NCBI RefSeq assembly: GCF_025398735.1
Contig: NZ_CP104694.1
Coordinates: forward strand, 3,001,001-3,065,000
Direction of reading: 5' to 3'
DNA: 64,000 nucleotides
From: Tahibacter amnicola
GTDB taxonomy: Bacteria > Pseudomonadota > Gammaproteobacteria > Xanthomonadales > Rhodanobacteraceae
Shown piece after piece: positions 7,623 through 22,935 of the stretch. Under the pieces are notes generated by a model, which was given only the letters and a program-made list of their open reading frames with translations, ran no database searches and was not told the origin of the DNA. The stretch's first letter is position 1. Every line of letters starts with the position of its first letter. A program made the position numbers and the translations under genes.

Positions 7623-10600
7623 ATGATCTCCAAACGCATCCTGCTTTCCGCCATTCTCGCCCTGTGCGTGGGCTGGCCCGGCGCGTATTCGCAGAGCGCC
7701 CGCGACACCGAACTCGCCCGCCTGAACACCGAACGCGCGCGCCAGGCGGCGCTGGCCGATCGCGATGTGGCAGCGGGCCGCGCGGTGCTCGCGGCGATGG
7801 GTTCGCACGCTGCCGCGCTGGATGATCGCCAGACCCAGGCCGAGTTCGCGCTGCGTTCGGCGCGCGAGCGGGCGGAGCGCCTGGCGGCCGCCGCGGCCGG
7901 CAGCGGCAGTGCCGCGGATGCCGCGCTGCGCGACCTGGCGGCGTTGCTCACGCCGGTGAGCCGTACCGAATCGACCGCTGCGCCCTCGGCGGTGTCCACG
8001 CAGGTGCCGCAGACCGTGCGGGCGACGTCGGCTCCGCGACCGGATCCGTCGCCGGCGGATCTGGCGGCCACGCTCGATGCGCCGATCACCCCGGCCATCC
8101 AGGCGCTGGCCGATGATCTGCACAAGCAACCGGTCGCCGTGTTCGAGTGGGTGCGCAAGCACATCGCGTACGTGCCCAGCGCCGGTTCCCTGCAGGGCGC
8201 GCAGGGCACGCTCGATGCGCGGCGCGGCAACGCGACCGATACGGCCAGCCTGCTGGTGGCGCTGCTGCGTGCCAGCGGCGTGCCGGCGCGCTATGTCGTC
8301 GGCACCGTCGATGTCGATCGCGAGCGGCTGCTGCGCTGGCTCGGTGTCGATCGCATCGAAGCGGTGACCGAGCTCTTCAGCGAAGGCGGCGTGCCGTTCC
8401 AGACGGTCGTGGTGGGCGGGCAGGTGGCCTCGGTGCGCTTCACGCACATTTGGGTGGAAGCCTGGATCGACTTCGTGCCCTCGCGCGGCGCGCGCCACGT
8501 GGAAGGCGATACCTGGCTGGCGCTGGATCCGAGCTTCAAGGAGCTCACCTATTCCCCGGGCCTGGACCTGGGCGTGCTGATGGCCCTGGATGTCACCGGC
8601 ACGAGCACGGCGATCAGCAACGCCGCGACGGTCCATCGCAACGAACGCTACCTGTCGGCCCTGGGCGCCGATGTCCTGGCCGCGCAACTGGATTCCGCGA
8701 CGCAGCGCCTGCACGCCGCGCTCGCCGCCCGCGGGCTCGCCAACGCGCCACTGTCGGAGCTGCTGCCGCGCACCAGCGATGCCACGCCGGCCTATCCCTT
8801 CTTCCCCGGCAATCTCGCCTATACCGTGGTCAGCGCCGACCCGGCGATCAGCGTGCTACCCGATGCGCAGCGCCATCGTCTGGAGTGGCAGGTCGCGCAG
8901 CGCGACGAAACGCCCGTGCTGGCCCTGCAGCAGCCGACCGTCGCCCTGGCCGGCAAGCGCGTCGACCTGCGCTTCGTGCCCGCCACGGATCTGGACCGCA
9001 GCGCGATCGAAGCGCTGGTGCCGGCGGCGCCGGGCAGCTTCACTGACCTGCCCGAACGCGTGCCGGCGTACCTGATCCGCGTGCGCGCCGAGCTGTGGCT
9101 CGACGAGGTCCGCCTCGCCCAGTCGGACGACCTGCCGCTGGGTGCGGCCCTGTCCGGCGAGCTGCGCCTGGCCGGCCCCACCGGCACGCCGCTGCACACC
9201 ACGCAAACCCTCTTCGCCGGCGAACCGCGCAGCCTCGCGCTGGACGCGCACGGCGGCATCGCTGCGGACCTGTCGCGCAGCGTCGAAGCCCTGCGCAGCG
9301 CGCAGCAGGCCCTGGTCGCCGGCCAGCCGATCACGCTGCCCCTGGTCGATCACGTGCTGCGCGTCGGCGGCAGTGGCCACCAGGCCGCCTCCGGTGCCTA
9401 CCAGAGCTGGCTGTCGGGCCTGAACAAGACACGCTACTACCGCGCCCCGAGCGCGACGACGGCCTATGCCGCGCTCGCCGTGACTGCGCCGTTCGGCATC
9501 GTCAGCAGCGTGCAACCGGCCGGCCTGGGCCTGAGCGATGTGTCGCCGCGTCACCTGGGCGCGCCGCTCGCCGGCGGCAACGAAACCCGCTTCGTGCGCC
9601 AGAGCCTGGCCGCGCAGTCGGGCTTCGGTCATCTCCTGCTCGAACAGCTCTACGGCGGCACCGGCCACTCGGCCGTGCGCGTGTTCGCGACCGCGCTCGC
9701 GGCCCAGCAGAACGTCTATACCTTTGCACCCGCCGACACCGCACAGCTGGCCGCGCTGAACCTGCCGGCCCCGATCAAGGCCATCGCCCAGGCCGCGCTG
9801 GCTGCCGGCGATACCGCCACCCTCACCGGTACCGCACAGGATCTGTCCGGCTGGACCGGCCACGCGCTCCAGATCGACTACCCGGCCGCCCGTGGCGGCG
9901 TCAGCCTCGTCTACGGCACGGCCGCCGATGCGACGCCGGAACAGACCGGCGCCAATGTCACCACGCCACTGGCCCGCGGCGCCGTCTTCACCGGCTGGCT
10001 CGCCCCCGACGTGCCGCCGCGTCTGCAAACGCTGTGGCAGGGCGAACTTGATCCGGTCATCGCCGGTGGCGTGGGCCTGGTCACGATCGCGCAGAACCCG
10101 CTCGGCATCGGCACCTCCACCCCGATCGAACAGGTGCTCGCCGGCAGCGTGATCGACGGCAGTGTCCGGGTCGATCCCCTGGTCAGCCAGCACCTGTGGT
10201 CGCTCCTGGTCGGCCCGGTGCTGAGCGTGGGCCCCTTGCTCGATCCGCTGGCCCCGGTCGTCGCGCTGGCTGTGGAACCGCTGTCGCTGGAACTGGGCCA
10301 GTCGGCCGTGATCCGCGCCAGCGCCACGGACAACCGCGCCGTGACGAGCCTCCTCGTCACCGCCGCCGGCGATGCCGTGACGCTCACCAACGGCAGCACG
10401 ACCTATACCCCGACCCGCGCCGGCGTCATCCCGGTCATCGCCCGTGCCCGCGATGCGGCCGGCAATCTCGACGAGAAGCGCGAAGAGCTCCTGGTGCGTG
10501 CACCGGGTGACACCAGCGCGCCGGTCGTGCTGATCACCAGCCCTGCCGACGATGCGGAGATCACACAACCGGTCGAGGTCACCGGCAAGGTCGTCGACGA

Positions 10601-13600
10601 CAGCCTGCGGTCCTGGTCCCTGGCGGTCCGCCCGGGCAATTCGCCCGGCATCCCGCCGGTGGTGATCGCCAGCGGCACCCAGGCGGTCGACGGCGTGCTC
10701 GGCACGCTCGATCCGACCCTGATGCTCAACGGCGCCTACGTGCTGATCCTGCGCGCCGAGGACGTCAACGGCGGCAGCGCCGAGTACAGCGTGCCGGTGC
10801 GCCTGGCCGGCGACATGAAGATCGGCCACTTCCAGATCAGCTTCGAGGAAGTGGAAGTGCCGCTGTACGGCATTCCGATCCGCATCACCCGCACCTACGA
10901 CACGCGCCAGTCGAAGGAAGCCCTCGACTTCGGCTACGGCTGGAGCGTGGACTACCAGAACATCCGCCTGCGCGAGAGCCGCAAGCTCGGCTACTCCTGG
11001 CGCCTGGCCCAGGACGGCGGCGGCTTCGCCCCGTTCTGCGTCAAGCCCAACGGCGCACCGGCCGTCACCGTCACCTTGCCCGACGGCAAGGTGGAACAGT
11101 TCCGCGCCCGGTGGTCGCCCGAGTGCCAGCAGTTCCAGCCGCCGGTCTACGGCACGCTGGTGTTCGAGCCGGTCGACACGCGCACCACCAGCCGCCTGGA
11201 ACAGCTCGACTACGGCCAGATGCGCCTGGCCAACGTGGCGGGCGGGGCGTCGGACATCATCGACATGGACTCGATCCAGCCGATCGATCCGACGCGCTAC
11301 CGCCTGACCACGGCCGAGGGCATGGTCTATACGTTGAACCAGCAACTCGGCATCGAGACGATCGCCGATCCGCTGGGCAACAAAATCACCTACAGCCGCG
11401 ATGGCGTGACCCACAGCTCGGGCACGCGCATCGACTTCGTGCGCGACGACAAGAACCGCATCACCGATATCGTGCTGCCCGATGCGCGCCGCCTGAAGTA
11501 CCGCTACAGCGCCGCGGGCGACCTGGCGGAAGTGAAGGACCAGGCGGGCCTGGCCACCACCTTCACCTACCTGCCGTCGCAGCGCTGGCCGCACTACCTG
11601 CAGGACATCATCGATGCGCGGAACATCCGCGCGGTGCGCCAGGAATACAACGACGAAGGCCGCCTGATCGCCTCGGTCGATGCGGAAAACCACCGCATCG
11701 AATACACCCACGATATCGCCGGTCATACGGAGATCATCAAGAACCGCCGTGGCTACGCGACGACCTTCGTCTACGACGACAACGGCTGGGTGCTGAGCGA
11801 AACCAATGCGCTCGATGAGCAGACGGCGCACACCTACGACACCAACGGCAACGAGCTGACCACGACCGATCCGCTGCAGCGCACGACCACGCGCACCTTC
11901 GATGCGCGCGGCAACGTGCTGACCGAGACGAACCACCTGCAGCAGACGACCACGCGCACGTGGACGTACTTCAACGAGCTGGAAACCGAGACCGATGCGC
12001 TGGACCGGCTCGTCGTCAGCAATGACTTCTACCGGCACCCGCAGACCGGCGAGCCGACGCAGTACCTGCGCTCGACCACCAACGGGGCGAACGAGAAGAC
12101 CTTCTTCGTGCTCGACCTGGGCAGCGCCAGCGGCAACACCGGCAATCTCAAGTCCATGACCGATGCATCGGGCGCGACCAACGCGTTCGAGTACGACGGC
12201 CGCGGCAGCGTGATCGAAACGCGCGATGCGCACGGCTGGAAGACGACGATCGTGCCCGACGCCCTGGGCCGCACGACGAAGGAGATCCGCCGCCGCACCG
12301 TCAACGGTGCGATCCAGGAGCTCGTCACCGAGCACGTGCTCGACGAGAAAGGGCAGGTCAAGGAAAGCCGTCATCCGGACGGCAGCACCACCAAGGCCAC
12401 TTACAACGCCATCGGCAAGATCGCCACGTCGACCGACGCGCTCGGCCGGGTGACGCACTACACCTACACCGATCGCGGGGAAGAGGAGCGGGTGACCTTC
12501 CCCGATGCGACCTACACCGAGAAGACCTACGACGAGGAAGGCAACGTCCTGACCGAGCGCGACCGCGACGGCCGCGTGACGACGATGAAATACGACGCGG
12601 CCAATCGCCTGAAGGAAACGATTTATCCGGATGACACGCCGGCAACGCTCGATGACAACCCGCGCACGGTCAACCACTACGACAAGGCGGGTCAACTGGT
12701 CGGCGTGACCGACGCGCGCAACCAGACCACGACCTACAAATACGACGATGCCGGTCGCCAGACCCACGTCATCAACGCGCTGCAGCAGACGACCGAGACG
12801 ATCTACGACAAGGCCGGCCGCCGCGAGGCGGTGATCGACAGCCTGGGTCGCACGACGCGCTTTATCTACGATGCCGCCAACCGCCTGACCGAGACCATCC
12901 ACCCGGACCTGACCCCGGCGACCGACGCCGACAACCCGCGCACGTTCGCCGCCTACGATGCGGCCGGCCGCAAGGTGAAGGAAACCGACGAAATGGGCCG
13001 GGTCACGCGCTTTGCCTATGACGCGCTCGGCCGCCTGACCCAGGTGATCCTGCCCAACCCCGCCAATGGCGCGAACCCCGATCTCGTCAACGGCGAAAGC
13101 CCCGCCGGCAGCGGCACCCTGGTCACGCGCTACGGCTACGACGAGCTCGGCAACAAGCTGACCCAGAAGGATGCCGAGGGCCGCACCACGAGCTGGACCT
13201 TCGACAAGGCCCAGCGCCCGCTGACGCGCACCTTGCCGCTGGGCCAGACCGAACGCTTCCACTACGACGCCCTGGGCCGAAAGGACAGCCACACCGACTT
13301 CCGCGGACGCACCACCGCGTTCCGCTACAAGCCCCAGACCGATTACCTCGAAACGATCGACTATCCGACCGATCCCGACGTCACGCTGACCTACACCGCC
13401 GGGGGCGAACTGCACACCGTGCAGGACGCCAACGGCACGACGGTCTACGCCAACGACGTCCGCGGGCGCCTGGAAAGGGTCACCTGGCCGGTGCGCCCGG
13501 GCGAGGCGATCGCCCCGTTCGTGGAATACCAATACGACGCCAACGGCAACCGCACGAAGCTCACCACCCCGAACCAGGTCATCGACTACCAGTTCGATGC

Positions 13601-15392
13601 ACTCAACCGCCTGGACAAGGTGCTCAAGGGCAGCGAAGTCATCGCCGACTACGGCTACGACGGCGTCGGCAACCGCGATCACCTCGTCTACGCCAACGGC
13701 ACCCGTACCGACTACGCCTACAACCTGCGCAACCGCCTGACCGGCATCACCCACAAAGCCGGTGCGTCACTCCTGCTCGGCGTCGTCTACACCGTCGACG
13801 CCTCCGGCCTGCGTACCGCCATCGACGAAACCGGCGCGATCCGGCGCCACGTCGACTACCGCTACGACAAGGTCAAGCGCCTGGAAAACGAAACCGCCGT
13901 CGCCCAGCTCGCCAGCGGCGCCGTCACCCGCAGCACCACCTGGACCTACGGCAAGACCGGCAACCGCCTGACCCAGAGCAAGAGCGTCCAGGCCGGCGCC
14001 ACCTCGGGTTTTGCCAACACGGTGTATGGCTACGACGCCAACGATCGGCTCGACACGGAAACCGTCACCAAGAGCGGCACCCTGCCGGGCGTCATCGCAG
14101 GCGTCACCAGGTACACCTACGACGAGGCCGGGAACACGATCAAGAAAGTCGCCCCCGACGAAACCGTCGAGTACGCCTACGACGATGCGAACCGGATGAG
14201 TGAGCTCAAGACGCTCGCCGGCGAGGTCACCCGGTATGCGTACAACCATGCCGGCATCAGGCTCAGTCAGACGAGCAAGGCAGGGACGGCCAATGCGAAG
14301 ACCAGTCATTACCTGATTGATCCGAATCAGGCCTATGCGCAGGTGATCGAAGAATCCACCGCGCAAGGGACGAATGCACCGACGGTGAGTGCGCTGTTCG
14401 TGGTCGGCGATGATCGGATCAGTCAGTTCAGGCCGGCGGTGGTGGGTGGCGGCAGCAGCCCGGGCGTCACCGCGAGCTTGCGGTACTACCACGCGGATGG
14501 GCTGGGATCGACTCGCCTGTTGACCGGTGAAGCGGGTAGCCAGACCGACGTTTACGGTTACGAGGCCTTCGGGGAGCTGGACCAGGCAATCACGCAGCAG
14601 GCCAGCAGCAACGACTTCCTGTACACCGGCGAGCAGATGGATCCGAATAGTGGGTTCTATTACCTGCGAGCGCGATACATGGTTCCGAGCATGGGGCGGT
14701 TCGTAGCCCTAGACGCCTACTTGGGCGACAGCGCCGGTCCGGCGTCATTGCACAAATACATGTATGGCAACGCGGATCCTGTGAATGGTCGCGATCCTTC
14801 CGGATACACGACGATCGGGGAGGTTGGGCAAGCGCTACAGACTGCAGGGAATTTAGCTACAAGCGCACTGCGGGTGGCCAATACGATTCATCGTGTTGAA
14901 ACCACGGTAAATATGGTCTATAGCGCAATTGAGATTGCACAGCTGTTCTATTCTGGCCAAGTCGACAAATCCATGAGGGAGGCTCTAAGAGATTCGACGG
15001 CTGCTTACGGTAAGGTCAACATTGACGATGCTGTTGAGAGCCTTCTACGAAACGCGCAACCGATTTCCACTTGGTCCTTGGCAAGCTGGGTGAAATATCT
15101 GACGCCGAGAGTCAATAACATCGAAGGGTTTGTTATCTACCTTCCTCAGAGCCCGATCTCAGTAACAGTGCCGTTCGCAAAAGCGGGAAAGTACAAAGTC
15201 AGCTTGCACACCGACTCGAAAGGGCGCGGTCGGTTGACTGGTGTCGGTATCAAATTTCGGGGCATCAAGGCCCCGCAGCAAGTATGGAGAATGGACGTTC
15301 ATGCCATTCATGCGGATAGGGATGACGCCAATGATGCGAAGTTCATTCAAGACCGGCAGTTTCACTATCATGTCAGGAAGCCGCCCGCATGA
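7623..15392 (+). CDS. RHS-repeat polymorphic toxin with transglutaminase-like N-terminal domain
   Basis: 2589 residues starting with a signal peptide (MISKRILLSAILALCVG, cleavage near AYSQS). Residues ~160-305 form a transglutaminase-like fold with 'ALLRASGVPARYV', 'FTHIWVEAWI' and 'LALDPSFKE', but the usual catalytic Cys position reads GNATD, so peptide cross-linking activity is unlikely. Two Ig-like modules (~875-1060) precede the RHS part, which starts near 'YGIPIRITRTYD' (~1080). YD repeats run to ~2290, then the core 'YHADGLGSTRLLT', 'YEAFGEL', 'NDFLYTGEQMD' and the junction motif DPSGY (~2391-2395). The last ~194 residues are the variable tip. This tip has visibly lower GC and rare codons compared with the core, as expected for an exchanged toxin module, and I do not recognise its family; the tail is rich in His/Asp ('MDVHAIHADRDD', 'DRQFHYHV'). 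RHS proteins form a cage that encloses the released tip. The stop overlaps the next gene (ATGA). Confidence 0.9.
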   Translation: MISKRILLSAILALCVGWPGAYSQSARDTELARLNTERARQAALADRDVAAGRAVLAAMGSHAAALDDRQTQAEFALRSARERAERLAAAAAGSGSAADAALRDLAALLTPVSRTESTAAPSAVSTQVPQTVRATSAPRPDPSPADLAATLDAPITPAIQALADDLHKQPVAVFEWVRKHIAYVPSAGSLQGAQGTLDARRGNATDTASLLVALLRASGVPARYVVGTVDVDRERLLRWLGVDRIEAVTELFSEGGVPFQTVVVGGQVASVRFTHIWVEAWIDFVPSRGARHVEGDTWLALDPSFKELTYSPGLDLGVLMALDVTGTSTAISNAATVHRNERYLSALGADVLAAQLDSATQRLHAALAARGLANAPLSELLPRTSDATPAYPFFPGNLAYTVVSADPAISVLPDAQRHRLEWQVAQRDETPVLALQQPTVALAGKRVDLRFVPATDLDRSAIEALVPAAPGSFTDLPERVPAYLIRVRAELWLDEVRLAQSDDLPLGAALSGELRLAGPTGTPLHTTQTLFAGEPRSLALDAHGGIAADLSRSVEALRSAQQALVAGQPITLPLVDHVLRVGGSGHQAASGAYQSWLSGLNKTRYYRAPSATTAYAALAVTAPFGIVSSVQPAGLGLSDVSPRHLGAPLAGGNETRFVRQSLAAQSGFGHLLLEQLYGGTGHSAVRVFATALAAQQNVYTFAPADTAQLAALNLPAPIKAIAQAALAAGDTATLTGTAQDLSGWTGHALQIDYPAARGGVSLVYGTAADATPEQTGANVTTPLARGAVFTGWLAPDVPPRLQTLWQGELDPVIAGGVGLVTIAQNPLGIGTSTPIEQVLAGSVIDGSVRVDPLVSQHLWSLLVGPVLSVGPLLDPLAPVVALAVEPLSLELGQSAVIRASATDNRAVTSLLVTAAGDAVTLTNGSTTYTPTRAGVIPVIARARDAAGNLDEKREELLVRAPGDTSAPVVLITSPADDAEITQPVEVTGKVVDDSLRSWSLAVRPGNSPGIPPVVIASGTQAVDGVLGTLDPTLMLNGAYVLILRAEDVNGGSAEYSVPVRLAGDMKIGHFQISFEEVEVPLYGIPIRITRTYDTRQSKEALDFGYGWSVDYQNIRLRESRKLGYSWRLAQDGGGFAPFCVKPNGAPAVTVTLPDGKVEQFRARWSPECQQFQPPVYGTLVFEPVDTRTTSRLEQLDYGQMRLANVAGGASDIIDMDSIQPIDPTRYRLTTAEGMVYTLNQQLGIETIADPLGNKITYSRDGVTHSSGTRIDFVRDDKNRITDIVLPDARRLKYRYSAAGDLAEVKDQAGLATTFTYLPSQRWPHYLQDIIDARNIRAVRQEYNDEGRLIASVDAENHRIEYTHDIAGHTEIIKNRRGYATTFVYDDNGWVLSETNALDEQTAHTYDTNGNELTTTDPLQRTTTRTFDARGNVLTETNHLQQTTTRTWTYFNELETETDALDRLVVSNDFYRHPQTGEPTQYLRSTTNGANEKTFFVLDLGSASGNTGNLKSMTDASGATNAFEYDGRGSVIETRDAHGWKTTIVPDALGRTTKEIRRRTVNGAIQELVTEHVLDEKGQVKESRHPDGSTTKATYNAIGKIATSTDALGRVTHYTYTDRGEEERVTFPDATYTEKTYDEEGNVLTERDRDGRVTTMKYDAANRLKETIYPDDTPATLDDNPRTVNHYDKAGQLVGVTDARNQTTTYKYDDAGRQTHVINALQQTTETIYDKAGRREAVIDSLGRTTRFIYDAANRLTETIHPDLTPATDADNPRTFAAYDAAGRKVKETDEMGRVTRFAYDALGRLTQVILPNPANGANPDLVNGESPAGSGTLVTRYGYDELGNKLTQKDAEGRTTSWTFDKAQRPLTRTLPLGQTERFHYDALGRKDSHTDFRGRTTAFRYKPQTDYLETIDYPTDPDVTLTYTAGGELHTVQDANGTTVYANDVRGRLERVTWPVRPGEAIAPFVEYQYDANGNRTKLTTPNQVIDYQFDALNRLDKVLKGSEVIADYGYDGVGNRDHLVYANGTRTDYAYNLRNRLTGITHKAGASLLLGVVYTVDASGLRTAIDETGAIRRHVDYRYDKVKRLENETAVAQLASGAVTRSTTWTYGKTGNRLTQSKSVQAGATSGFANTVYGYDANDRLDTETVTKSGTLPGVIAGVTRYTYDEAGNTIKKVAPDETVEYAYDDANRMSELKTLAGEVTRYAYNHAGIRLSQTSKAGTANAKTSHYLIDPNQAYAQVIEESTAQGTNAPTVSALFVVGDDRISQFRPAVVGGGSSPGVTASLRYYHADGLGSTRLLTGEAGSQTDVYGYEAFGELDQAITQQASSNDFLYTGEQMDPNSGFYYLRARYMVPSMGRFVALDAYLGDSAGPASLHKYMYGNADPVNGRDPSGYTTIGEVGQALQTAGNLATSALRVANTIHRVETTVNMVYSAIEIAQLFYSGQVDKSMREALRDSTAAYGKVNIDDAVESLLRNAQPISTWSLASWVKYLTPRVNNIEGFVIYLPQSPISVTVPFAKAGKYKVSLHTDSKGRGRLTGVGIKFRGIKAPQQVWRMDVHAIHADRDDANDAKFIQDRQFHYHVRKPPA
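12272..14690 (+). repeat. RHS core direct repeat, copy A (inside the full-length rhs gene)
   Basis: This stretch is colinear with 17240-19658 at a constant offset of 4968 bp (checked at 12336/17304 and 14631/19599). The encoded proteins differ at only about five positions over the first ~660 residues and diverge increasingly over the last ~130 before the tips. The offset is a multiple of three, so both copies are in the same frame. Confidence 0.93.
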
Positions 15393-15856
15393 TTAAGGAT
15401 AGAAGCAAACAATTGCTCTTCTTGTTTTGTCTGCCAGCGGATGAAATATATGATTACTTAATTCGTGGGATGCACGGAGCGGTATACTACGGCCCGGATA
15501 GCGAACACGAAGGAACAAATATGCCGGAGGTGATTCTGCTCGAGTTGAGCGAGCACTTCCTCGGTGACGAGATCAGTCTTGGTTGTGAAAGCGATGTTCT
15601 GGCTGAGCTTTGTTGGCTAGTCTCAACAATGTTGGAGATATCAGTTCGTGCACCTAACGAAGCTAGGCTGAGGTTTCTCGAGTCACACGACTACTTTTGG
15701 GCAATAGTGAGGCGTTACGCTCGCCTTGTACTCGTCGAGTACGATATTGAACTTCAGAATCCCTCGTTCGATTTTAGGAGCGTGCTGGAGGCGCACGGCT
15801 ACTCGGTTGAATTCCAGCCGCGTGCAATCCAGGACAGCCAGGAATCGGAATTCTGA
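15389..15856 (+). CDS. Probable immunity protein for RHS tip 1
   Basis: 155 residues, start ATG overlapping the rhs stop by ATGA, which implies translational coupling. The protein is acidic and leucine-rich, predicted mostly helical, with no signal peptide or membrane segment, consistent with a cytoplasmic inhibitor. No family is recognised from sequence. The role is inferred from position: polymorphic toxin tips are nearly always followed directly by their cognate immunity gene, and base composition here matches the AT-richer tip rather than the GC-rich RHS core. Some overlap-coupled hypothetical gene of another function cannot be excluded. Confidence 0.7.
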   Translation: MIKDRSKQLLFLFCLPADEIYDYLIRGMHGAVYYGPDSEHEGTNMPEVILLELSEHFLGDEISLGCESDVLAELCWLVSTMLEISVRAPNEARLRFLESHDYFWAIVRRYARLVLVEYDIELQNPSFDFRSVLEAHGYSVEFQPRAIQDSQESEF

Positions 15857-16222: not shown

Positions 16223-17121
16223 TTATGTGCCGGCGAAGTACCACCCCGTCAGTCTTCCGTTCCAGCCGGAGAACCATTCCGGCTCGCCGCGTGCTTTCGA
16301 TCGTCCACTCCAGGTTTCGGCTGGCGTTCGACCCGCAAGATGTTGATGCGGTCGCACATGGTTGTACCAGCAGCGAAACTCGACAAGCTTCGTCCGAAGA
16401 TCGTCGCCGTTGCCGATTGCGATGCGGTCCAGATAGCTTTTCAGCGTCCCGAACAACCGCTCGATACGTCCGTTCTGCCAGGGGCAGTGCAGTTCCGTTC
16501 GCTGCAAGCGGATGCCGAGACACCGCAGCGCAATGCGCATTGTCCGTGACGTAAAGCAGCGTTCGTTATCGACACGGATGCGTCGCGGCAATCCGAACTG
16601 CCGGAACGCGCCGACCAGCTCGCGCAGGATCGTGGCGCTGCGCTTGTCCGCCAGTTCCAGTAGCCGAAGCGCTGCGCGGCTACCGTGGTCGATGACGCGA
16701 GAATCAACCGCTGCCTGCCGGAAAGATCGGCCTTGCCGGTCAGATCCATCGCCCAGATGCGGTTGGTGTCGATCGCCGGTGGTACACGATGCTTCAGTGA
16801 CCGACGCAGCCGTGCGATCGCTGCACGGTGCTTGCGCAACGCGCTGGCGACGTAGCTCTTGCTGACGGTGATGTGACGAGCGTCTGCATACCGTCGGTTG
16901 AAGACGTCGGCAATCACGCGGCAACCCAGGTTCGGGGAGAGCGCGCGCAGGCGGACCAGTTCACGGACGACCCAATCGGGCTTTCGTTGAAAGCGGCAAG
17001 CGAATCGCGATGCGCGAACGAGATCGACCGTTTCACGCATCCGGCGTCGTCGCGAATCGGCCTGTGGGCGCAGCAACACAGTCGCTAGCGCGATGCACAA
17101 CAGAGCGATCAGTAGCGTCAT
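16223..17121 (-). pseudogene. Integrase-core (rve, DDE) transposase, frameshifted
   Basis: Read on the minus strand, the N-terminal part (17121 down to about 16690) has a hydrophobic start, a helix-turn-helix-like region and the first catalytic Asp in IWAMDLTGKAD. The frame then breaks after 'GRQRLIL', and the homologous continuation 'VIDHGSRAALRLLELADK' lies in another frame, consistent with one missing base near 16685-16700. The second frame carries the second Asp (RVDNERCF) and the Glu (WQNGRIERLFGTLK), then 'WYNHVRPHQHLAGRTPAE', the usual end of this transposase type. All three DDE residues exist but no single frame encodes them. Programmed frameshifting is possible, but no slippery heptamer is obvious, so I call it a broken gene. 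It is inserted between the first immunity gene and the second RHS cassette. Confidence 0.75.
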
Positions 17122-17239: not shown

Positions 17240-19658
17240 CACGACGAAGGAGATCCGCCGCTGCACCGTCAACGGTGCGATCTAGGAGCTCGTCACCGAG
17301 CACGTGCTCGACGAGAAAGGGCAGGTCAAGGAAAGCCGGCATGCGGACGGCAGCACCACCAAGGCCACCTACAACGCCATCGGCAAGATCGCCACGTCGA
17401 CCGACGCGCTCGGCCGGGTGACGCACTACACCTATACCGATCGCGGGGAAGAGGAGCGGGTGACCTTCCCCGATGCGACCTACACCGAGAAGACCTACGA
17501 CGAGGAAGGCAACGTCCTGACCGAGCGCGACCGCGACGGCCGCGTGACGACGATGAAATACGACGCGGCCAATCGCCTGAAGGAAACGATTTATCCGGAT
17601 GACACGCCGGCAACGCTCGATGACAACCCGCGCACGGTCAACCACTACGACAAGGCGGGTCAACTGGTCGGCGTGACCGACGCGCGCAACCAGACCACGA
17701 CCTACAAATACGACGACGCCGGTCGCCAGACCCACGTCATCAACGCGCTGCAGCAGACGACCGAGACGATCTACGACAAGGCCGGCCGCCGCGAGGCGGT
17801 GATCGACAGCCTGGGTCGCACGACGCGCTTTATCTACGATGCCGCCAACCGCCTGACCGAGACCATCCACCCGGACGCCACGCCGGCGACCGACGCCGAC
17901 AACCCGCGCACGTTCGCCGCCTACGACGCCGCCGGCCGCAAGGTGAAGGAAACCGACGAAATGGGCCGGGTCACGCGCTTTGCCTATGACGCGCTCGGCC
18001 GCCTGACCCAGGTGATCCTGCCCAACCCCGCCAACGGCGCGAACCCGGATCTCGTCAACGGCGAAAGCCCCGCCGGCAGCGGCACCCTGGTCACGCGCTA
18101 CGGCTACGACGAGCTCGGCAACAAGCTGACCCAGAAGGATGCCGAGGGCCGCACCACGAGCTGGACCTTCGACAAGGCCCAGCGCCCGCTGACGCGCACC
18201 TTGCCGCTGGGCCAGACCGAACGCTTCCACTACGACGCCCTGGGCCGAAAGGACAGCCACACCGACTTCCGCGGACGCACCACCGCGTTCCGCTACAAGC
18301 CCCAGACCGATTACCTCGAAACGATCGACTATCCGACCGATCCCGACGTCACGCTGACCTACACCGCCGGCGGCGAACTGCACACCGTGCAGGACGCCAA
18401 CGGCACGACGGTCTACGCCAACGACGTCCGCGGGCGCCTGGAAAGGGTCACCTGGCCGGTCCGCCCGGGCGAGGCGATCGCCCCGTTCGTGGAATACCAA
18501 TACGACGCCAATGGCAACCGCACGAAGCTCACCACCCCGAACCAGGTCATCGACTACCAGTTCGATGCACTCAACCGCCTGGACAAGGTGCTCAAGGGCA
18601 GCGAGGTCATCGCCGACTACGGCTACGACGGCGTCGGCAACCGCGATCACCTCGTCTACGCCAACGGCACCCGTACCGATTACGCCTACAACCTGCGCAA
18701 CCGCCTGACCGGCATCACCCATAAGGCCGGCACCTCGCTGCTCCTCGGCGTCGTCTACACCGTCGACGCCTCCGGACTGCGTACCGCCATCGACGAAACC
18801 GGCGCGATCCGGCGCCACGTCGACTACCGCTACGACAAGGTCAAGCGCCTGGAAAACGAAACCGCCGTCGCCCAGCTCGCCAGCGGCGCCGTCACCCGCA
18901 GCACCACCTGGACCTACGGCAAGACCGGCAACCGCCTGACCCAGAGCAAGAGCGTCCAGGCCGGCGCCACCTCGGGCTTTGCCAGCACGGTGTATGGCTA
19001 CGACGCCAACGATCGGCTCGACACCGAGACGGTGACCAAGTCCGGCACCCTGCCGGGCGTCATCGCCGGCATCACCAGGTACACCTACGACGAGGCCGGC
19101 AACACGATCAAGAAGGTCGCCCCCGACGAAACCGTCGAGTACGCCTACGACGATGCGAACCGGATGAGTGAGCTCAAGACGCTCGCTGGCGAGGTCACCC
19201 GGTATGCATACAACCACGCCGGGATCAGGCTCAGTCAGACGAGCAAGGCGGGGACGGCCAATGCGAAGACCAGTCATTACCTGATTGATCCGAACCAGGC
19301 CTATGCGCAGGTCATTGAGGAAGCCACGCAGCAGGGCACGGCACCGGCGACGGTGAGTGCGCTGTATACCTTTGGGGATGACCGCATAAGCCAATTCCGG
19401 CCGGCGCAAGTCGGTGGCGGGACGACGCCGGGAACTGCGGCCAGCCTTCGCTACTACCATGCCGATGGACTGGGTTCGACGCGGCTGCTGACGAGTGAGG
19501 CGGGAACCAATACTGACGTCTACGGATACGAGGCCTTCGGGGAGTTGGACTCTGCTATCACGCAGCAGGCCAGCAGCAACGACTTCCTGTACACCGGGGA
19601 GCAGATGGATCCGAATAGTGGGATCTACTACCTGCGGGCTCGTTACATGGATCCGGTG
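17240..19658 (+). repeat. RHS core direct repeat, copy B (silent cassette)
   Basis: Second copy of the 2.4-kb RHS core segment, 4968 bp downstream of copy A and in the same frame. Divergence rises sharply at the 3' end: 'MVPSMGRFVALDAYLG' in copy A versus 'MDPVAGRFTQQDAFSG' in copy B. Confidence 0.93.
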
Positions 19659-20459
19659 GCGGGGAGGTTCACGCAACAAGACGCATTTTCGGGTCACGTC
19701 CTTGACCCACTGTCCCTAAACAAATACGTCTACGCAAGCAACCTATCGAGCGAATACGTTGACCCAAGTGGTTATAACAACACGCTTCCGGCGCAGACAA
19801 TGGCTACGTCAAATGCCATTGTCCTTTCAGGCGCCCGTGCGGTGCCGCTGCTTACGCGAACGAGCTTGAAGATCGGTATGAGGTCATCAATCTGGGCGGC
19901 CCCGATCGCAGCAACAGCTGCTGCAACTGCCGGAATGAGTACTTCTGGGCTTGATATGGTAAAGGCTCTCGCGCATCAAGCGCAGAGCGAAGGCAGTGAC
20001 CGCCTACTGGGTGTGCCGGTGATTGTATTTGGAGGGCTAGACTTCCCAGGGCACGCGCTACATATTGCCTTGTCGCAGATTGGCATCTCTAAAAGTGGCG
20101 CCCGCACACCGTACGCGTTAAATGGATTCCCGGAATGGGATAGGTCCTGGCTAAAACAGACCAAGGAATGTAACAAGAAGGCTGTTGCTGCTTCTCCGGG
20201 GAAGTCGGCTTGTGATGAGTTTCCGTTCGCTTCGGCGCGTCAAGGTGGCCCGGTGAACTATATGCTAGGGAGCGTTTCGCTTCAGCTTCTCGATAGAGAC
20301 GAGTCGAGCCGAACCGGGCCATTCATTCGTGATTTCTACAAATACGGGGCAATCGCCAGAGATGGGTTTTCTCCGACTTCGCGCTTCTTCGCGTTCGGGG
20401 CTCCCGGTGCGAAAAGTTTCTTTATTGACAGAAACGGTCTTGTTCACAACAAGGAATAG
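17240..20459 (+). pseudogene. Silent RHS cassette with NucA/NucB-type DNase tip
   Basis: Homology to the upstream rhs gene begins abruptly near 17240, in the middle of the YD-repeat region, with no signal peptide or N-terminal domains. In-frame stops TGA (17232) and TAG (17283, a CAG codon in copy A) precede the open stretch, and the first usable codon is a GTG at 17304 with no Shine-Dalgarno, so it is probably not translated in place. The frame runs through the RHS core to DPSGY (~19761-19775) and then into a different ~227-residue tip. The tip ends with a Cys-containing lead-in (KQTKEC), 'CDEFPFASARQGG' (20211-20249) and 'RTGPFIRDFYKYG'. This is the signature layout of NucA/NucB-family extracellular DNases. 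It is an orphan tip module that could be activated by recombination with the full-length gene. Confidence 0.8.
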
Positions 20460-20468
20460 TGGTGTCAA

Positions 20469-20924
20469 ATGTTAAGAATCACGTTCTGGCATATCCCAAA
20501 CTACTTCCAGTTTTACATTCAGGATCCGGGAACGGAAGCTGCTGTTGGATCGGCAGCCGCGGAAGAACTGGTTAAGGATCGTTTTGTTGTGCTGAAGGGG
20601 TTGGTTGGAGTCGGGGTGACTAGCGACTATGACCGTATTCCTATTACAGTCGAGTACGATTCAGAGCAGTGCGCACTTTCCGATCTGTCGGAGTGGGATC
20701 GTGTTGTCGAGTGCTCGATTTCGACTCAGTCCGGTCGGCTGGAGCTAATTGGGTGCACCGCGTCGGACGCCTTCGGTGTAATCGAGCTGCCCAGCGGGGA
20801 CTATCGGCTGCGCCTTCACTTCGGTGGCCAAGATGAGACTGACTCTGAGGGGAATGCTGCGGACTATTACCTAGTTCAGGTGTGGCCAAAGGCGTTGGAG
20901 TCGACGGTCATACTGAAGTCGTAA
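20469..20924 (+). CDS. Probable immunity protein to the DNase tip; Nin/ComJ-like
   Basis: 151 residues starting 9 bp after the RHS-DNase cassette stop. The sequence looks beta-rich: alternating hydrophobic strands, then 'FGVIELPSGDYRLRL' and 'ADYYLVQVWP' near the C-terminus. As I recall Nin (ComJ) of Bacillus subtilis, it shares this layout, including an 'LPKGDYQL' segment followed by an acidic loop and a Tyr-containing final strand. Nin is the specific inhibitor of the NucA nuclease, and this gene directly follows a NucA/NucB-type DNase tip, so function as immunity protein is well supported by context. The Nin relationship itself is my reading of a pattern, not a search result. No signal peptide. 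Confidence 0.65.
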   Translation: MLRITFWHIPNYFQFYIQDPGTEAAVGSAAAEELVKDRFVVLKGLVGVGVTSDYDRIPITVEYDSEQCALSDLSEWDRVVECSISTQSGRLELIGCTASDAFGVIELPSGDYRLRLHFGGQDETDSEGNAADYYLVQVWPKALESTVILKS

Positions 20925-21544: not shown

Positions 21545-22401
21545 GCCGCGTAGTCTACAATGCGTCAGCCACAAAGAGTTGAGTGCTGACGGATGAGTAA
21601 GCTTGAGATCAAGGACGATCTATGGGACGTGATTCGGCGGCTACTTCCGCCGGAGCCAGATCGCCCGAAAGGTGGTCGGCCAAGAGTGCCGGATCGTGCT
21701 GCCATCAACGGCATCGTGTTTGTCCTGAGGACGGGGATTCCATGGGAGCATTTGCCGCTCCGGCTAGGCTATGGATCCGGCATGACCTGCTGGCGACGGC
21801 TGCGAGACTGGCAGCAGAGCGGTGTTTGGGATCGATTGCACAAGGAACTGTTGCGGCGGTTGCGTAGCTACGATCAGATCGACATGTCGCGAGTGAGTGT
21901 GGATGCAGCGAGTGTTCCTTCCCCCCGGGCGGGGAGGAAACCGGTCCAAATCCTACCGATCGAGGAAAGTTGGGGTGCAAAAGGCACGTTGCGGTCGATG
22001 CCAGGGGCACGCCGCTCTCGTTCCTCATCAGCGGCGCGAACACGCACGACAGCAAGTGCTTCGAAGCCGTAGTCAATGCGTTACCTGCGGTTGGTGGTCT
22101 TCGAGGGCGTCCTCGGCGATGGCCAGACAAGGTTCATGCTGACAAGGGATACGACTACGAACATTGCCGACACGCGTTACGGCACCGTGGAATCGTCCAG
22201 CGTATCGCTCGGCGAGGCGTCGAATCTAGCCAGCGACTGGGCAAGCATCGTTGGGTCGTCGAAAGAACGTTTGCTTGGCTCAACCGATTCAAACGCCTTC
22301 GCATCCGGTATGAGCGCCGCCCTGAAATCTATCTGGCCTTCGGATTGCTCGCTTGCTCATTGATCTGCTGGCGTGCGATTGAACGGTTTTGTTAGGCACT
22401 C
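21529..22401 (+). mobile_element. IS5-family (IS427-like) insertion sequence
   Basis: An 873-bp element bounded by perfect terminal inverted repeats GAGTGCCTAACAAAAC (21529-21544) and its complement (22386-22401). The identity extends through flanking CTTA/TAAG, giving 20 matching bases on each side. The flanks fit a 2-bp TA target duplication at an original CTTAAG site. One transposase is encoded in two overlapping frames. Removing the element and one TA restores a continuous reading frame across the junction into the toxin tail at 22402-22528. Confidence 0.9.
21593..22395 (+). CDS. IS5-family transposase, two frames joined by a -1 shift
   Basis: The first frame (21593-22072) opens MSKLEIKDDLWDVIRRLLPP and carries 'TGIPWEHLPLRLGYGSGMTCWRRL' and the first catalytic Asp (VSVDAASV). 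The second frame (from about 21970 to 22395) carries 'HVAVDARGTPLSFLISGANTHD', the second Asp (VHADKGYD) and the Glu (HRWVVERTFAWLNRF). The switch maps to GCAAAAGG near 21976-21983, where a -1 slip on the A run gives 'GAKRHVAVD', the expected family sequence. IS427-group elements commonly make the active enzyme by frameshifting, so the element may be functional; a plain frameshift mutation is the alternative. Confidence 0.8.
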
Positions 22402-22405: not shown

Positions 22406-22528
22406 TGGCCCGGTTCCAATTCGGGATCTATGTGGACTGCACAGATCAAGGCGGACGGGAAACTAGTCGGTCTTGACGGGAATATGTATTCAAAAGCGAA
22501 TAACTTTACACACATTCCGATTGACTAG
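22402..22528 (+). pseudogene. C-terminal remnant of a third toxin tip
   Basis: Directly after the IS the frame reads 'LKWPGSNSGSMWTAQIKADG', then 'KLVGLDGNMYSKANNF' and ends THIPID with TAG at 22526-22528. The sequence has the AT-richer composition of the other tips. Its stop abuts the next small gene, just as the other tip/immunity pairs do. Upstream of the IS only ~13 more codons stay open (back to a TGA at 21486), so the N-terminal part and any RHS core are gone. The toxin family is not recognised. Confidence 0.6.
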
Positions 22529-22539
22529 TGGGGGCGATG

Positions 22540-22935
22540 ATGGATCTGGACGAATACGAAGACCTTCCGGAAACAATCTCTGCTGCTCAGGTCGAGGTAC
22601 TTGTGGATGTGTTTATTAATGAGCAGCGAAGTGGGTCGGGCAAAGATTGGTTCGCTAAGTTGGAAATACTTGCGGACAAGCAATGGCATACCTATAGCGA
22701 GCCTTCCCTCTCTGTTAGGGAGAAGGTGACGTCGTGGATTCTGGAAGCATGGGAGGACAGCGACGACTTTCTGGAGCTGGCGATGGGGGTCGCGTATTCG
22801 TTTTGTCTTCGGAAGCAGGTTTTTGAGCGGGCTTTTGTCGCATACAATGGAAGCCAAAAGGTGGAATTTGCGGAGATGCTGGAAAATTCCCCTGGCGATA
22901 ACATGGATGCGTATTGGTCGCTTCGTAACCTGTAG
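22540..22935 (+). CDS. Probable orphan immunity protein (third cassette)
   Basis: 131 residues from ATG 22540, preceded by GGGGGCG at suitable spacing. A GTG at 22528 and an ATG at 22537 are alternative starts in the same frame. The protein is acidic and helical ('LDEYEDLPETISAAQVEVLV', 'WEDSDDFLELAMGVAYSF') without signal or membrane segments, typical of small polymorphic-toxin immunity proteins, but no family is recognised. It follows the truncated toxin tail immediately. Retained orphan immunity genes can still protect against kin carrying the intact toxin, which would explain why it has stayed open while the toxin was destroyed. Confidence 0.65.
   Translation: MDLDEYEDLPETISAAQVEVLVDVFINEQRSGSGKDWFAKLEILADKQWHTYSEPSLSVREKVTSWILEAWEDSDDFLELAMGVAYSFCLRKQVFERAFVAYNGSQKVEFAEMLENSPGDNMDAYWSLRNL

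Follow-up and report, generated by a model that had tools for sequence, protein, structure and literature searches.

A NucA/NucB-family tip and its ComJ-fold neighbour on a truncated RHS copy of Tahibacter amnicola

Inhibitor pairs around NucA/NucB-type nucleases

ComJ is the known natural inhibitor of the nuclease NucA. How this inhibitor, also named Nin, acts on NucA was still presented as an open question in 2017, in the available part of the text (PMC5758888). An earlier note on the DNA studied here proposed that such an inhibitor pair also serves as a toxin/immunity pair on RHS proteins, an idea that is not new, since it was published in 2012. In the portion of Zhang et al. available (PMC3482391), Tox-ComI was listed with Imm-ComJ, RHS proteins being among the carriers, on the basis of comparative-genomics prediction, and it was proposed that the Bacillus pair may itself derive from a toxin-immunity pair. 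No further paper treating ComJ or Nin as immunity was found in the literature searched, which was mostly without subscription papers. RHS tips of NucA/B type with adjacent immunity were tested by experiment in Aeromonas hydrophila (Rhs2/Tsi2; PMC12396204) and in S. suis (WapA-CT1/Imm1; PMC12704120). The accessible text on S. suis also describes truncated downstream WapA duplications that carry further toxin/immunity pairs, one of them not deliverable (PMC12704120), and that on Salmonella reports a NucA/B-type RHS tip predicted with another possible partner, DUF6707 (PMC11669294).

A locus of this kind was analysed in Tahibacter amnicola. The window, meaning the whole stretch of 64,000 nucleotides (contig NZ_CP104694.1, positions 3,001,001 to 3,065,000), probably harbors an RHS toxin tip and its immunity gene, in which a NucA/NucB-family DNase tip is combined with a ComJ-fold protector on a displaced, truncated RHS copy. 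New here are an unlisted branch of the ComJ fold, the rarity of nucleases alongside its members, and a related nuclease domain that has another kind of partner.

The truncated RHS copy and its tip domain

The second RHS copy presents the traits of RHS polymorphic toxins, namely repeats (RHS_repeat match to the ORF, E 1.3e-68) and the associated core (Rhs_assc_core, running to residue 823), followed by a variable tip and an adjoining small gene (Table 1). A full-length RHS gene with its own tip and downstream gene is found upstream (7623-15392). By comparison with this gene (blastn), copy 2 is without its 5′ part, which corresponds to more than half of the RHS gene, and an in-frame stop is found just within the 5′ edge of its core homology. 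No N-terminal export/delivery part was found in copy 2, whose homology begins only at 17240 (12272 in copy 1). The G+C content is 0.51-0.56 in the tip and partner genes vs 0.63-0.69 in the RHS core. Because copy 2 is truncated at its 5′ end and lies, together with the tip/partner pair, between transposase genes, the pair is best taken for a displaced tip cassette that is probably not delivered, and the truncated copy is probably silent. The displaced-cassette reading is favored by the truncation and by the fact that the two RHS cores are 95% identical.

Table 1. Features of the truncated RHS copy and its surroundings (positions in the window)
Feature	Position	Strand	Remarks
RHS core copy 2	17240..19655	+	5′-truncated; 95% DNA-identical to 12272-14687 of full-length RHS gene (blastn)
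Longest listed ORF, truncated RHS protein	17304..20459	+	1051 aa
Variable tip after RHS-associated core	19773..20459 (about)	+	TIGR03696 ends at residue 823
DNase_NucA_NucB Pfam match	20160..20351	+	inside tip
CDEFPFASARQGG	20211..20249	+	Asp-Glu pair aligned with NucB Asp93/Glu94
ComJ-fold putative immunity protein	20469..20921	+	151 aa; stop codon 20922-20924
Integrase-core (rve) transposase frame	16223..16924	-	Pfam rve_3; just upstream of truncated RHS core
IS4/5-type transposase	21593..22395	+	two overlapping frames; Pfam DUF4096 on first frame (21593-22072 scanned)

A third RHS core stretch at the contig start (G000:C1:1-1291, minus strand) is 98% identical to copy 2 over 1291 bases. The tip of copy 1 and its downstream 155-aa gene (14688-15856) matched no Pfam family above cut-off and constitute a candidate toxin/immunity pair. 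A 135-aa gene located after the IS4/5 transposase (22528-22935), also with no Pfam family match, is possibly an orphan immunity gene.

The earlier note had recognized in the tip the layout of NucA/NucB-type DNases, which was borne out by profile searches. The tip scored 32.6 bits against PF14040 (DNase_NucA_NucB; E 1.2e-7), which is 8.8 bits above the Pfam gathering cut-off of 23.8 bits, and a profile of eight such nuclease domains (A4) matched the solved NucB structures 9fj7, 6ejs and 5omt with E-values of 2.3e-11 to 5.2e-11, the latter for 5omt. Moreover, Asp79, Glu80 and His28 of the 159-aa tip domain align with D93, E94 and H53 of NucB (NucB numbering transferred to the alignment by offset), and the equivalent of NucB Ser108 is also kept. 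At the level of sequence, membership of the tip in the NucA/NucB family is thus confirmed. It would be very improbable for the tip not to be a nuclease and for its motif to resemble one by chance: although just 64 residues match the Pfam model, and the AlphaFold2 model of the tip, built on an alignment of four sequences only, reached a pLDDT of just 35, too low to judge the beta-beta-alpha fold of the family, this explanation is contradicted by the score above a curated cut-off, by the kept Asp-Glu, His and Ser positions and by the match of the domain profile to NucB structures.

The activity of the tip is a separate matter. The active site residues of NucB have been described, and mutation of Asn117 abolished activity, according to the available portion of the report (PMC5758888). 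This metal ligand of the BlNucB-type site is not kept in the tip, where a Ser occupies the position within a gapless aligned stretch, and the DNase activity of the tip becomes less certain for that reason. For eleven domains the residue at this position was read by visual inspection along the ungapped alignment that follows Ser108; for L104 and L108 no placement was possible. Asn was found in four (L004, L014, L018 and L107), Gln in another four (L002, L015, L061 and L101), and Ser in three (the window, L003 and L103), the preceding residue being D, E or Q in all of them; the position thus varies within the family. The Ser would weaken the claim of activity but not that of family, and the tip is best described, from its sequence, as a putative nuclease. 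We regard it as unlikely that the pair is in decay, with a catalytically dead tip on a truncated RHS gene. The Ser in the alignment and the truncated core with transposases on both sides would fit such decay; however, the frames of both tip and partner are open, Ser is shared with L003 and L103, and seven of the 11 domains placed by eye hold Gln or Ser.

The neighbouring protein and its family

The partner ORF starts on the same strand after a gap of nine bases from the stop of the tip ORF. Its resemblance to Nin/ComJ, also put forward in the earlier note, stood at the level of fold and through its relatives, but not in its own Pfam score: the 151-aa protein had no direct family match in Pfam and NCBIfam, ComJ (PF11033) giving no match at E<=10. 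The matches of a phmmer search against PDB were unrelated proteins (E 0.31 or worse). In the partner-family alignment A3, comprising the window protein and 54 of its 81 genome and viral relatives, PF11033 was matched by 24 of the 55 rows at E<=1 (best 1.3e-5), and the next families by five and four rows (best E 0.016 and 0.01). When the A3 profile was compared with 177,635 PDB sequences, CgnJ (6i86, E 0.0012) and ComJ (4mqd, E 0.0028) were retrieved, followed by a match at E 1.7, and hhalign of the partner family against two ComJ proteins gave a probability of 89.8 (E 1.8e-6).

The predicted structure led to the same proteins. For the AlphaFold2 model of the partner (pLDDT 91.4), Foldseek ranked 4mqd, the B. 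subtilis ComJ/Nin, first in PDB (E 7.9e-8, TM 0.67/0.75) and 6i86 second, with nothing else below 0.1. In VIA-align, 4mqd was also at rank 1 (Z 15.6, 2.8 A over 129 residues), 6i86 had a Z of 13.2 and the next chain a Z of 3.1. As for the Imm-ComJ residue signature (W, F[DE], PF, Y, Y), inspected by eye, the Y of GDYRL is present in the window protein, and W, F[DE] and PF are absent at their expected places. Judged from its relatives and its predicted structure, the partner has a diverged version of the ComJ fold, one that the Pfam ComJ model does not capture.

The distribution of this family is broad. A single-protein search of genome contigs retrieved no relative of the partner, and the alignment-based search retrieved 165, of which 80 were kept for analysis (L019-L098), spanning at least nine phyla. 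The same alignment matched one viral contig, and tblastn in plasmids gave matches in 12 records at 26-37% identity, of which 10 were analysed; the other two are further S. longwoodensis entries showing the same match. Closer to the window, the partner was found only in its own genome among 369 sampled genomes of the class, and no other genome had a family member among eight of the genus.

Most of these relatives are not accompanied by a nuclease. No PF14040-family nuclease was found in the flanks (<=4 kb, shorter in some) of 79 of the 80 genome loci, and no NucA/NucB domain above cut-off in 77 of the 80 genomes (present in 2 of 50 and 1 of 30), an absence that is not certain for each of them, as part are incomplete metagenome bins. 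YD-rich frames were absent from the 80 loci by a crude count of the YD motif. In an all-against-all BLAST of raw frames, no recurrent neighbour of the stand-alone genes stood out among the 18 clusters listed: the family itself came first, and the others were mixed clusters of antisense frames and frames grouped by composition, synteny within the Bosea group, and two clusters of common enzymes or transporters, each drawn from four genera. The partner is, then, a member of a broad, mostly stand-alone ComJ-fold branch missed by standard family models, whose stand-alone copies may do another job or guard against incoming nucleases. A wider proposal, which we put forward only tentatively, is that the ComJ fold defines a broad superfamily of small proteins, with ComJ, CgnJ and the present branch as members, in at least nine phyla. 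The usual task of these proteins would be unrelated to a resident NucA/NucB, and nuclease immunity would have been recruited from them several times, in the present case taking the place that SUKH holds beside a related domain.

Nuclease and partner in other loci

In three further loci, a relative of the partner follows a NucA/NucB gene at a distance of 13-25 bases, one from Cyanobacteria among the 80 genome loci (L061) and two from Streptomyces among the 10 plasmid loci (L014 and L015), with nuclease domains 20-28% identical to the tip (L014 28%, L061 27%). In a quick tree, the nuclease-adjacent label required at least three changes, with the ComJ of L004 counted as adjacent, L100 left out, many forks open and the window row long and unsurely placed. 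The chance expectation among 90 loci was estimated as well under 0.01, against three observed, assuming a nuclease rate of 4 in 147 genomes and about 4000 genes per genome (a round figure). The three adjacencies far exceed chance, with the reservation that nucleases of this family may be more frequent in Streptomyces.

Among the close relatives of T. amnicola, PF14040 domains are rare and their partners are diverse. The domain occurs in one place of the own genome, and four of the 147 genomes sampled from the taxonomic family carry it, the own genome included; the tip search of 369 sampled class genomes found two, also with the own. Of three viral contig searches with nuclease domains, two returned a single locus and the third returned nothing. 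A search with PF11033 gave no match in 398 genomes sampled from the phylum, despite the presence of ComJ in the genus (L004). In the genus, three of eight genomes carry a PF14040 domain, each with a different kind of partner: the ComJ-fold protein of the window, a true ComJ (L004) and a SUKH protein (L003). The comparison with L003 and L004 concerns their nuclease domains. In L004 (85-1241), a PF14040 frame above cut-off is followed, at position 777, by an abutting true ComJ (PF11033, 69.5 bits), in resemblance to the Tox-ComI/Imm-ComJ pairs predicted in 2012. In L003 (881-1905), the nuclease domain is 56% identical to the tip, the closest found, and a SUKH gene overlaps it; an Acaryochloris domain (L101, 27% identical), among the next closest, is likewise followed by a SUKH (SMI1/KNR4) protein.

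Since the closest domain and L101 have SUKH partners, the ComJ-fold partner may not be cognate. The true partner would then have been a SUKH protein and the ComJ-fold gene a mere neighbour or a second protector, as the many ComJ-fold relatives found without such a nuclease would also allow. We consider this quite improbable, given the gap of just nine bases, the relatives placed behind NucA/NucB genes elsewhere, the known inhibition of NucA by ComJ, and the absence of a SUKH remnant adjoining the tip in a tblastn search with two SUKH proteins. A weak SUKH match (E 0.003) turned up at 53.5 kb, but its frame does not resemble SUKH. The alternatives are an exchange of the partner and protection that does not depend on the ComJ-fold gene alone.

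The reading as a toxin tip and its immunity gene is favored by the PF14040 score, the kept active-site residues, the ComJ link of the partner, the three adjacent loci and the ComJ pair of L004, and is opposed by the Ser at the Asn117 position, the failure of the Pfam ComJ model to detect the partner, the SUKH genes beside L003 and L101, the 79 nuclease-free loci, and the low pLDDT of the tip model. Under this reading, the tip would act as a metal-dependent NucA/NucB-family DNase domain, cutting DNA and being toxic once secreted, and the ComJ-fold protein would bind the nuclease and protect the producer, as ComJ/Nin does with NucA. Recombination across the 2.4-kb core could return the tip cassette to the full-length RHS gene.

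Thus, the 2012 prediction is extended by a case missed by standard models, now with predicted-fold support, which points to a widespread ComJ-fold family mostly without the expected nuclease. Like the Tox-ComI/Imm-ComJ pairs, as far as the available text describes them, the window pair combines a NucA/NucB-type (ComI) toxin domain, also found with RHS repeats, with a putative immunity gene of ComJ type, encoded directly behind the nuclease. Unlike Imm-ComJ, the window partner is without W, F[DE] and PF (by eye), escapes the Pfam model and belongs to another branch, mostly nuclease-free. With the B. subtilis NucA/Nin (ComI/ComJ) pair, the locus shares the nuclease family and the inhibitor fold, whereas the Bacillus pair has a competence role, a secreted nuclease and no RHS, and the partner is only 13% identical to 4mqd in the structural alignment. 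The same fold is found in CgnJ (6i86), a gene of crocagin peptide biosynthesis by PDB title. To our knowledge, CgnJ has no nuclease link. Together, the window pair, the ComJ pair of the same genus and the SUKH-partnered relative offer material for studying the ways in which proteins of different folds may block a single nuclease family. The available parts of the A. hydrophila and S. suis papers mention no ComJ fold for Tsi2 and Imm1, and describe Rhs2 and WapA-CT1 as toxins at work in competition (PMC12396204, PMC12704120); the RHS copy of the window, by contrast, is truncated. In this respect, the window copy fits the displaced tip cassettes exemplified, in the accessible text, by the truncated downstream WapA copy of S. 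suis (PMC12704120).
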